Assembly: GCF_030410135.1 (NCBI RefSeq)
Contig: NZ_JAUGQQ010000001.1
Coordinates: 248,001-312,000, forward strand
Length of the DNA stretch: 64,000 bases
Direction of reading: 5' to 3'
Source: Aequorivita aurantiaca
GTDB taxonomy: Bacteria; Bacteroidota; Bacteroidia; Flavobacteriales; Flavobacteriaceae
Shown: one piece after another, positions 5,567-40,437 of the stretch
How positions within the stretch are numbered: the stretch's first letter is position 1
Layout: every line of letters starts with the position of its first letter
Notes under the pieces: generated by a model
What the model saw: only the letters and a program-made list of their open reading frames with translations
Told to the model about the DNA's origin: nothing
Database searches by the model: none
Position numbers and translations under genes: made by a program

Positions 5567-5700
5567 TTTTATGGCTACGAAATAAATAAAATAGAAATTA
5601 AGTGTGATCCTTTCGTAAAATTTTCTCTTTAATAGTTAAGTGCAAGTTTAATTTGGGCGCTAAAATTGAACTAGGATTAAATAGTCAATTTATACCAATA

Positions 5701-5786
5701 AAAAAAGGCAAACAAATGTTTGCCTTTTTTTGCCCCAAATCTACCATGAACTTAACCTACTTATGCTAATGGTATGTTCAAATATA
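5701..5786 (-). ncRNA. Putative small RNA unit A (hairpin plus terminator)
   Basis: Read on the minus strand: a TATATTTG box (5779-5786, exact TAnnTTTG); two bases later a stem with TACCAT/ATGGTA arms (5769-5774 and 5742-5747); a loop containing TAAGTAGGTTA (5753-5763); then GATTTGGGGC; and a hairpin AGGCAAAC/GTTTGCCT followed by a run of T (5701-5730). The predicted transcript is about 70-75 nt. Unit B at 6086-6172 has the same layout and the same conserved blocks. It could instead be a 3' UTR element of the purF-like gene, or a plus-strand repeat; Rfam was not searched. I do not recognise the family. Confidence 0.45.
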
Positions 5787-6085
5787 TGGCAATAAAAGGT
5801 TCAAAATTATGCTTTTAGATGAATAACCTATATTTTCGTTAAAAGACCTATTTTGCAATTATTCTCCATATAAGAGATATGTATACATTTAATTTTAACA
5901 CTTTTAAGCAAAGAGAAAACAGTTTAATACAAGGTTATGAGTACAACCAACACCTTATATAACCTCTCAAAAATTGAATGATTGCAGAAGAAAAAGCCCC
6001 GGGTATTGAGAAAGCCAAAACGATCACGAGAGCATTTTAGCATTAGTTTGCTTATCAAGACCCCCCTGTTCAAATCTTTGGCATG
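5787..6085. other. Gene-free stretch between the two RNA-like units
   Basis: About 300 nt, A+T-rich, without a plausible open reading frame (the longest I find is a 14-codon frame from 5938). A weak inverted pair AGGTTAT/ATAACCT lies near 5932-5965. Nothing else could be supported. Confidence 0.5.
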
Positions 6086-6172
6086 AAAAAAGGCAGGCTT
6101 TCGCCTACCTTTTTTGCCCCAAATCTTACCATAGACCTAACCTACTTACGCCTTATGGTAAGCTCAAATATA
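6086..6172 (-). ncRNA. Putative small RNA unit B (hairpin plus terminator)
   Basis: Minus strand: TATATTTG box (6165-6172); two bases later a perfect 8-bp stem CTTACCAT/ATGGTAAG (6155-6162 and 6125-6132); a loop with the same TAAGTAGGTTA block (6138-6148); GATTTGGGGC; then the terminator hairpin AGGTAGGC-GAAA-GCCTGCCT and six T. In this hairpin the minus-strand RNA pairs fully (one G-U) with a GNRA loop, while the plus-strand copy would have a C-A mismatch, so the minus strand is the likely transcribed one. It sits 100 nt after the stop codon of the purF-like gene. Confidence 0.5.
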
Positions 6173-6271
6173 AATTAAGTTTTCTTCACTAATATAGTGT
6201 CAATCAACAATTTCGTTTAAGTGAATTGGGTTTCCGATAAACGGCATGGGCCTTGTTAAAATTTGAAGAAA

Positions 6272-16448: not shown

Positions 16449-17867
16449 TTAATTTTGTTTAAAGATTATCGTCTGCTGTGTAGCTCCTTCTTCATAGTTA
16501 AACTCAATCTTATAAAGACCCGCATCGAGTTCATCGATAAGATTGGGGTTATTAATTCCGATCGAATCTTTTGGGGTTATTGTAACATTTGCATTCAAGA
16601 CACCGTCGTTAAATAGTGTAACACTACCGCCATTTGGTCTCCGATTGTAATTATCATAACATCGGCGGGTGTTTTGGCCATAGGTATCACAAATATCGAG
16701 GTCAATATAAATGGCACTGTGATTGGGATGAGTTATAATACTATAGTTTGGTTCATACTTGCTTATTGTCAACAAGGAGTTATTGGTATAAGAGAAGGAA
16801 ATATCATTATAGTCTGCAGGTTCCGGACAGTCACAGCTGCATTCCACAAAACGATAGTCAAAACCTGGCTGGAACAAGGGTTTATATAAAACTGGGGTTC
16901 CCGGGGAACTACTGACAAAATATTCCCCGGCGTATGGCTCGTATAGGGACTCAATAGATGTTAGGGTAGGTGCAAAATTTCCAAGAATATCATCCTCAAG
17001 TGCTTCTCGCGCCCGTATTCCCTGACCGATTGTTAATGGGGAATAGCCATCCATACAAATATATGCATCACTAAGAACGTTAATTACATCTTCGTGTGAG
17101 GGTATATATTCGTCACCATCATAATCTCTCTGAGTTCCATCATTTTCATATGTACAATTTACGGTTATAAATGGATATGTACCATTTGAAGCCCTGTAAC
17201 CCGGATTGGCGGCCGTATCAATTACCCTATCGCCATGGGTATCGGCATTGTAGTCAGGATCGTTAATGTCCCTGGTAACCCTTTCCCCGCCTATTCCCCG
17301 GGCTGACCGAGTATGTATCAGGTTAAGGTTATGGCCTATTTCATGGGTCATGGTAGATAATGTCAATCCCGCGGCGCTTACGCCGGATGTAGTAACATTA
17401 TAGCCCGGAGAAATACCCCCGAACGCTCCCCATCCAAAAACATAGACATTAAAGGCGTCTGCTTTTTTATACCCATTAGCCTCCGCCCACGAGGTGAGCC
17501 CATTGAACTGTATGATGTTTTCCAGAACAAAATGGCCATCAGGGTCATTGGGCAAAGCAGGACTCTGTATTTTCTCAAAGCCCCTATACTTAAAATAAAT
17601 ATTGAACTGATTGTAGAGAATGTTTGTATTGGCCACGGCGGTAAGCACATTATGGGCCTGGTCGGGGAAATAATCAACCCCGTCGGGATGCTTAATACCC
17701 CAAAAATAAATATTGAGGACGATAGGCTCGCATTCCATATCAAAATAAGCACTGTCCGTGGAGTGGCTATATACTCCCGTCGGATCGGGGATTGTGGGTT
17801 CGGGCGTTGCACAAACGGGGCTGCCTTGTTGTGCGTTCATAAAAATACATTTGCAATAAATGTACAA
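16449..17867 (-). CDS. M43-like (pappalysin-type) metalloprotease, signal peptide out of frame
   Basis: A zinc metalloprotease of 472 residues as read. The zinc site is HEIGHNLNLIH (about 174-184), HExxHxxxxxH, with Asn where M43 enzymes usually have Gly; a later ICMDGYSPLTIGQGIRARE segment resembles the Met-turn region of the family. Several Cys, including CSCDC, are present, and the C terminus (GLYKIEFNYEEG ... IIFKQN) recalls a T9SS-type end, weakly. The start MYIYCKCIFMNAQQG is not a convincing signal peptide, but in another frame just upstream (17840-17887) a good one is encoded; see that entry. Likely a secreted enzyme disrupted or mis-sequenced by one base. Confidence 0.7.
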   Translation of the reverse strand: MYIYCKCIFMNAQQGSPVCATPEPTIPDPTGVYSHSTDSAYFDMECEPIVLNIYFWGIKHPDGVDYFPDQAHNVLTAVANTNILYNQFNIYFKYRGFEKIQSPALPNDPDGHFVLENIIQFNGLTSWAEANGYKKADAFNVYVFGWGAFGGISPGYNVTTSGVSAAGLTLSTMTHEIGHNLNLIHTRSARGIGGERVTRDINDPDYNADTHGDRVIDTAANPGYRASNGTYPFITVNCTYENDGTQRDYDGDEYIPSHEDVINVLSDAYICMDGYSPLTIGQGIRAREALEDDILGNFAPTLTSIESLYEPYAGEYFVSSSPGTPVLYKPLFQPGFDYRFVECSCDCPEPADYNDISFSYTNNSLLTISKYEPNYSIITHPNHSAIYIDLDICDTYGQNTRRCYDNYNRRPNGGSVTLFNDGVLNANVTITPKDSIGINNPNLIDELDAGLYKIEFNYEEGATQQTIIFKQN

Positions 17868-17887
17868 AAAAGTAGTAGGTTTTTCAT
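17840..17887 (-). other. Out-of-frame signal peptide of the metalloprotease gene
   Basis: From ATG at 17887 the minus strand encodes MKNLLLFCTFIANVFL, a typical Sec signal core, and then stops at a TGA that overlaps the ATG of the protease frame (ATGA). Adding one T to the T-run just before would join it to MNAQQGS, giving a normal flavobacterial signal peptide with cleavage after NAQ. Either a real frameshift, a homopolymer sequencing error, or a stop-start coupled upstream frame. Confidence 0.65.
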
Positions 17888-17995
17888 GATTACAAAAGAT
17901 TTGGGCTAATAATTTAGTTATATGAACATATATTATGATAAATGTAGTGATTTATATATCACTTTCAAAATTATTTTGATGCTCATCTTTAACGG

Positions 17996-39881: not shown

Positions 39882-39918
39882 TATATTTGAACCAACATCA
39901 TGCCCCAAATTTGATGTT
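39882..39918 (+). promoter_or_regulatory. Promoter box and leader hairpin of the CAP lipoprotein gene
   Basis: TATATTTG (39882-39889), an exact -7 element, then AACATCA (39894-39900) and TGATGTT (39912-39918), a 7-bp inverted repeat around TGCCCCAAATT that would lie at the very 5' end of the mRNA. Confidence 0.5.
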
Positions 39919-39927
39919 GCCCCAATT

Positions 39928-40437
39928 ATGCACCTACTAAAAAGTAACCTACTTGCCATGGCGCTGCTATGTCTGGTAATCACCTCTTGCTCAAAAGAGG
40001 ATTCTGTTGAAGTTGAAGCCGTAAAATATGATATTGATCTGGCCTTAGCTCAAAGAAATGACAGTCAAATGTCCAGTGAAATCCTAAGTCTTGTGAATAG
40101 CCACCGTACCTCTTTAGGACTTTCTACCTTAAAAATGGACACCCAATATGCTTCAGCTTTCGCTGTGGACCATACTGAATATATGATTGAAAAGGAGCAA
40201 ATAAACCACGATAATTTCGGGTACCGCTCAGAAGGAATTAAATATCACGACAATGCTGAAGTTGTTGGGGAAAATGTAGCGTATGGATATGAAACCGCTG
40301 AAAAGGTGGTGGAAGCCTGGTTAAAAAGCCCCGGCCATAAGGCAGTTATTGAGGGAAATTATACCCACACTGGTTTTGGTGTGATGAAATGCGAAAAGGG
40401 CCGCAGCTATTTCACTCAACTCTTTTATAGAAAGTAA
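39928..40437 (+). CDS. CAP-domain lipoprotein (SCP/PR-1 family)
   Basis: 169 residues. Lipoprotein signal (ITSC lipobox, Cys about 21), then a CAP domain (about 48-167): HRTSLGLSTLKMDTQYASAF, trimmed, AVDHTEYM, NHDNFGYRS, EVVGENVAYGY, and VEAWLKSPGHKAVIEGNYTH. The conserved His and Glu of the CAP cleft are present. The role in bacteria is poorly known; envelope or cell-wall related functions have been proposed. It has its own promoter. Confidence 0.88.
   Translation: MHLLKSNLLAMALLCLVITSCSKEDSVEVEAVKYDIDLALAQRNDSQMSSEILSLVNSHRTSLGLSTLKMDTQYASAFAVDHTEYMIEKEQINHDNFGYRSEGIKYHDNAEVVGENVAYGYETAEKVVEAWLKSPGHKAVIEGNYTHTGFGVMKCEKGRSYFTQLFYRK

Follow-up and report, generated by a model that had tools for sequence, protein, structure and literature searches.

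A family of RNAs of about 75 nt, previously uncatalogued and encoded at a conserved chromosomal position across the Flavobacteriaceae, is identified here by sequence comparison, beginning with two tandem units in Aequorivita aurantiaca. These units are probably an array of co-regulated, trans-acting small RNAs (sRNAs) that occlude the start codons of envelope-protein mRNAs. Their sequence, conservation and synteny, their complementarity to start codons, and a motif shared with the target promoters carry this reading. At the sequence level, the existence of the small RNAs is almost certain; pairing with the start codons of envelope-protein mRNAs is highly probable, and repression is overall the likely sign of the regulation. 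Each unit has its own predicted promoter and terminator, together with conserved complementarity to mRNAs encoded elsewhere, which identifies the units as putative trans-acting antisense sRNAs.

Anatomy and distribution of the units

Direct reading of the minus strand at 5700-6172 of the window (the whole stretch of 64,000 nucleotides analysed) reveals two homologous units of about 75 nt, as a preliminary description of this DNA had proposed. In each, a -7 box of its own (TATATTTG) precedes a hairpin with UAAGUAGGUUA, which is followed by a GAUUUGGGGC linker and then by an intrinsic terminator (Table 1). The +1 positions were inferred from F. psychrophilum, in which the sigma-A box TAnnTTTG is located at -12 to -5 (PMC9723704). 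The minus-strand RNAs fold with z-scores of -6.0 (unit A) and -4.8 (unit B), and none of 200 shuffles was as good. In the same genome TAAGTAGGTTA occurs four times, but the hairpin, linker and terminator are found only at units A and B; the copies L003 and L004, which are devoid of them, were rejected as units. Taken together, the folds and this restriction of the full anatomy to two copies place the units beyond chance.

Table 1. Coordinates of the units, their elements and the predicted targets. Positions are those of the window unless a locus is named.
Feature	Position	Strand	Description and evidence
sRNA unit A	6086..6160	-	~75 nt, predicted +1 at 6160, terminator end 6086; sequence and fold
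Unit A -7 box TATATTTG	6165..6172	-	Sequence; TAnnTTnR conserved across genera
Unit A apical loop region TAAGTAGGTTA (seed 1)	6138..6148	-	Invariant in aligned rows
Unit A linker GATTTGGGGC (seed 2)	6116..6125	-	Sequence and alignment
Unit A intrinsic terminator AAAAAAGGTAGGC-gaaa-GCCTGCCTTTTTT	6086..6115	-	Fold; arms covary across relatives
Unit A upstream direct-repeat element CCGTTTATCGG ... CTTAAACGA	6213..6243	-	Period ~21; sequence, motif count
sRNA unit B	5700..5774	-	~75 nt, predicted +1 at 5774, terminator end 5700; sequence and fold
Unit B -7 box TATATTTG	5779..5786	-	Sequence; conserved across genera
Unit B apical loop region TAAGTAGGTTA (seed 1)	5753..5763	-	Sequence and alignment
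Unit B linker GATTTGGGGC (seed 2)	5732..5741	-	Sequence and alignment
Unit B intrinsic terminator	5700..5731	-	Palindromic on both strands; sequence and fold
Unit B upstream direct repeat TTTAACGA and TTCATCTA	5815..5844	-	20 bp apart; sequence, motif count
Predicted target, CAP-domain lipoprotein (169 aa)	39928..40437	+	Pfam PF00188, E 1.3e-18
Target site 1, GCCCCAAAT	39902..39910	+	Linker complement, in 5' UTR hairpin loop
Target site 2, AACCTACTT	39946..39954	+	Loop complement, first codons
Second candidate site CCCAAATC-TTTTGTAATC-ATG-AAAAACCTACT	17881..17905	-	Duplex -30.4 kcal/mol; metallopeptidase-like gene 16449-17867 (minus)
Small-protein gene downstream of scoB	L481 about 1231-1317 (G000:C11 near 510.9 kb)	-	Tandem sRNA sites in leader
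Small-protein orthologue	L510 2412-2537		

Read on the minus strand, the stem of unit A is formed by CTTACCAT and ATGGTAAG, and that of unit B by TACCAT and ATGGTA. Pairing of the stem arms, claimed for both copies, thus holds for unit A, while in unit B it is limited to these 6 bp and the outer 'CA' of CATACCAT stays unpaired. The terminator said to pair fully on the minus strand only is that of the 6086 unit (A) and not of unit B: there, a U-G pair on the minus strand becomes a mismatch on the plus strand, and the terminator ending at 5700 is a perfect palindrome. The preliminary description also regarded arms that differ yet still pair as the mark of selected RNA structure. This is true of the terminators, whose arms vary between relatives and keep pairing, but the first hairpin varies too little among host copies, its covariation being limited to one A-U to G-C swap. 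TAAGTAGGTTA is identical in 49 of 49 aligned rows and GATTTGGG nearly so, and the UAA/UUA closing pairs rest on a symmetric mismatch of two purines, which are A-A or, in unit A of Aequorivita, G-G.

Independent support for the hairpin comes from two viral contigs, in which the loop and linker are kept and the stems are wholly different from those of the host yet pair. One of them (L156, 412-506) reads TTCTAATTTAAA-TAAGTAGGTTA-ATTAAATTTAGAA-TTGATTTGGGG followed by a terminator (fold z -4.4); the other (L035, 5915-5995) reads CTAGC-TAAGTAGGTTA-GCGTTAG-ATTTGGGG, also with a terminator (fold z -3.0), and encodes a terminase related to those of Bacteroides phages. A GroEL-like protein is encoded on the former contig as well. 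Most matches to looser viral patterns were due to chance, and L182, L193 and L205, obtained in this way, look like ordinary G-rich terminators and were discarded.

A DNA search of 59 relatives recovered the tandem copies at 80-100% identity in most genomes of the same genus, and also in members of several further genera of the family. When named genomes were scanned with a pattern, at least 118 stretches were obtained; among the matches listed, every genus-named record belongs to the Flavobacteriaceae (Zobellia, Maribacter, Winogradskyella, Aquimarina, Flavobacterium and others), and some are labelled uncultured. One pattern match, L146, lies inside a coding region and was set aside as chance. 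A first covariance model (R1), built on a MAFFT alignment of whole units, performed poorly because of the variation in unit length, and a model of the hairpin and linker (R2) was used instead. R2 matched 240 of 299 Flavobacteriaceae genomes and 193 of 236 genera, with E about 1e-16, and gave nothing below E 0.003 outside the family in a phylum-wide sample. In Rfam 15 no family reached its gathering score in the window, where only chance-level matches appeared at E up to 10, and only unrelated matches came up when the literature was searched for the loop and the linker. The preliminary description had named a covariance search as its check and homologues without the conserved stem and loop as contrary evidence; the family homologues found with R2 were not of that kind. 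Its reading of two small RNAs of 70-80 nt is supported by the TAnnTTnR box of each unit, the fold, the linker, the terminator and the family-wide conservation; the units are presumably transcribed.

Arrays comprise 1-7 units per genome, usually 190-250 bp apart. The purF gene lies directly upstream on the same strand in 101 loci and a convergent SOD gene directly downstream in 91, so that the array, nearly always located between these two genes, constitutes an orthologous locus. In most genera the first unit starts a short distance from the purF stop codon, and a few genomes have extra units away from purF (L414, L415, L420 and L427). Those at L414 (near 1527) and L415 (near 1651), both on the minus strand (G032:C13), are dispersed units with a GGGTAAAAG linker outside the purF-SOD interval. 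There are two classes of unit. The linker ends in GGGG in most of them. In a group of genera to which Maribacter, Zobellia and Flagellimonas belong, the array ends with a unit (e.g., L029, L041 and L063) that has GATTTGGGACG together with a different, very conserved promoter, CACAATACCAGTAATTTAG, which suggests separate control. In Aequorivita loci (e.g., L008), a CATGCCCCAAATTTGGGGTGGC-like sequence complementary to the linker is located directly 3' of several terminators.

Predicted targets

A scan for seed complements provided the first lead, a Zobellia lipoprotein whose 5' leader reads CCCAAATCTTA-AC-ACCTACTTATG, the final ATG being the start codon. The bipartite pattern CCAAATCN{0,13}CCTACTTATG, the complement of linker and loop ending in ATG, was chosen after this example had been seen; it matched 29 times in 299 family genomes versus once for the reversed control, and all 29 genomes carry the sRNA. 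Among 354 non-family Bacteroidota there were no matches, the only two in that sample being family members already known. The ATG opens an ORF in 25 of the 29 matches: 16 encode orthologues of the CAP-like lipoprotein, 3 a second small lipoprotein and 3 a Zobellia lipoprotein with Ig-like domains, and the others are a short protein carrying a probable tail for type IX secretion, a CreD-like protein and a small protein encoded downstream of scoB. Since 16 of the 29 matches are orthologues of one gene, the independent target families number about six. The exact match is absent from many family genomes, and a second, looser pattern was less clean (40 matches versus 9 in the control). Genome scans with single seeds (CCCCAAATC, ACCTACTTA) served as leads only, as they matched mostly coding sequence and their reversed control was biased by a stop codon.

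In most targets the AUG itself lies within the paired segment, and the CAP leaders keep both paired blocks unchanged around a spacer of variable length and sequence. Across the genomes compared, sRNAs spelled UAGAUU or UAAGAUU are matched by targets spelled AAUCUA or AAUCUUA; sRNAs reading UAGAUUUGGG go with targets reading CCCAAAUCUA, and in Aequorivita the sRNA reads UAAGAUUUGGG and the target CCCAAAUCUUA. This matched change is suggestive, although it follows phylogeny.

Within the window, the CAP-domain lipoprotein ranks first of 50 start regions, with a predicted duplex with the sRNA core of -35.3 kcal/mol; the runner-up reaches -23.6 and the median is -15.6 kcal/mol. The hairpin of its leader persists despite stem changes in 7 Aequorivita genomes, and the mRNA is also predicted to pair at codons 6-8. 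The metallopeptidase-like gene is a less certain candidate: its 16-codon leader ORF, MKNLLLFCTFIANVFL, and the main ORF are in different frames around a TATTTTTATG run (17830-17905, minus strand), and the break may be an assembly error, a pseudogene or a real frameshift. Elsewhere in the genome, a capD-like polysaccharide gene carries GCCCCAAATC at its extreme predicted 5' end.

In most genera an unannotated gene of 29-46 aa, with the consensus MNxAPNLPxPTxxES...LTKKxFML and no match in Pfam or NCBIfam, is found downstream of scoB. Its leader contains one to three sRNA complements in most genera, several of at least 17 nt. In A. aurantiaca, the leader CCCAAATCTTACCAACTTAACCTCATATG is predicted to form a duplex of -51.6 kcal/mol with unit A, and none of 300 shuffles was as good. 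With up to three sites, this mRNA may also act as a sponge.

Promoter control, mode of action and rival readings

The motif TTYRWCBA, defined on the same data as scored, occurs upstream of the -7 box in 76% of GGGGC units (14% expected) and in 96% of target promoters (21% expected). In the units it forms mostly direct repeats 20-21 bp apart, with copies in the array reading TTTCATCGA/TTCATCTAA; the narrower form GTTYRWC is present in 43% of units only. It resembles LytTR-type sites, such as CCGTTCGTC of AlgR; the direct repeats of LytTR-regulated promoters are of the GTTN[AG][TG] type and about two helix turns apart. Because the same element precedes the sRNA units and their targets, one candidate regulator probably drives both, and the shared operator suggests an incoherent feed-forward loop. 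ECF-type control, as described for the promoter of the F. psychrophilum RNA Rfp11 (PMC9723704), is disfavoured by the TAnnTTnR box conserved in front of every unit and by the 20-bp repeat, which favour sigma-A together with an activator.

The proposed mechanism would involve near-identical trans-acting sRNAs of about 75 nt, each transcribed from a sigma-A-type promoter and most of them controlled by an operator of direct repeats further upstream. Pairing would begin at the single-stranded, G-rich linker (GAUUUGGGG), after which the apical loop (CAUAAGUAGG) would open its weak A-U closing stem. Linker and loop would then pair with two short mRNA segments around the start codon (CCAAAUC ... CCUACUUAUG), blocking the entry of the ribosome and reducing translation. 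The outputs lowered in this way would be the CAP-domain lipoprotein, other envelope lipoproteins and the protein of about 40 aa encoded downstream of scoB. With one regulator driving both the sRNAs and their targets, the circuit would limit the output of envelope proteins through incoherent feed-forward.

Pairing with the same mRNAs could instead activate them, by opening a 5' UTR hairpin or stabilising the 5' end. The linker complement of Aequorivita CAP leaders does lie in a conserved 5' hairpin loop, and the capD-like site is at the very start of its leader; activation is nevertheless unlikely, for an AUG inside the paired segment, as in most targets, would block initiation, and the A. aurantiaca CAP leader pairs in its codons 6-8 as well. 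A different role, that of decoys titrating an RNA-binding protein through tandem invariant-loop hairpins in the manner of CsrB or RsmZ, would suit the invariant loop and closing pairs, the purine-purine mismatch beside the loop and the many tandem copies. It fails to predict perfect start-codon complements in specific genes across genera, and the linker is invariant too, beyond the hairpin alone; this reading was dropped once the start-codon complements appeared and is judged quite improbable.

The proximity of the first unit to the purF stop fits a repeated purF 3' UTR or attenuator rather than independent RNAs, and a repeated 3' UTR regulator had been the alternative offered in the preliminary description. 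It becomes very improbable because every unit has its own promoter, with a conserved -7 box and an upstream operator, and because extra units exist away from purF. Least credible is a mobile or structural DNA repeat devoid of RNA function: the multiple copies and palindromic terminators would agree with it, but the fixed synteny in more than 100 loci, the strand-specific U-G pairs, the covarying terminator arms and the complementary start sites elsewhere argue strongly against it. Start-codon occlusion by trans-acting sRNAs is the preferred explanation.

Related RNAs and significance

The closest parallel within the phylum is FopS of Bacteroides thetaiotaomicron, a paralogous sRNA family with a phage-borne copy that stops translation near the start codons of surface-protein mRNAs, associates with the RRM protein RbpB and has been deposited in Rfam (PMC11697453). 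The units described here share its multicopy nature (1-7 copies per genome), the start-codon pairing with surface-protein mRNAs, predicted here in silico, and the phage copy; their targets are lipoproteins and small proteins, whereas those of FopS are of the SusC type. In FopS, a terminator comes after a single-stranded 5' seed, and the members are separate genes; the present units have a 5' hairpin with loop and linker seeds and form one syntenic tandem array. No match to a FopS-type curated covariance model was obtained in Rfam 15, of which the copy used may not include FopS. The Rfp sRNAs of F. psychrophilum (Rfp11, Rfp13, Rfp15 and Rfp18) are likewise short, structured and conserved beyond the species, and Rfp18 affects secreted-protease mRNAs, pairing through its third stem-loop (PMC9723704). 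Compared by description only, they may belong to the same family as the units. Flavo-1 RNA (RF01705) is another motif widespread in Flavobacteriaceae; it is a separate RNA, which cmscan places off the units. In F. swingsii, a Flavo-1 copy occurs close to the array (plus strand of L070, 5116-5193).

OmrA/OmrB, MicA/RybB, Qrr and LhrC are sibling sRNAs that act under one regulator and limit envelope proteins by pairing at start sites; in sequence and phylum they are unrelated to the units described here. A family-wide envelope circuit is possible, though less likely than not: one response regulator would drive the array and the lipoprotein genes that it limits, the small-protein mRNA might serve as a sponge, and phages of Bacteroidota with stem-swapped sRNAs might reprogram the surface of the host by means of its own seed pair.

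Beyond a few species of Bacteroides and Flavobacterium, the post-transcriptional control of Bacteroidota has been charted poorly, and few RNA families of the phylum have been curated. The present analysis adds a predicted sRNA family found in most genera of Flavobacteriaceae, a large marine and freshwater group that includes fish pathogens. It also predicts target sites to the single base, proposes a candidate operator common to sRNAs and targets, and reports copies carried by phages; among the predicted targets, an unannotated small protein is the most conserved. The whole putative regulon thereby becomes directly testable in cultivable strains.
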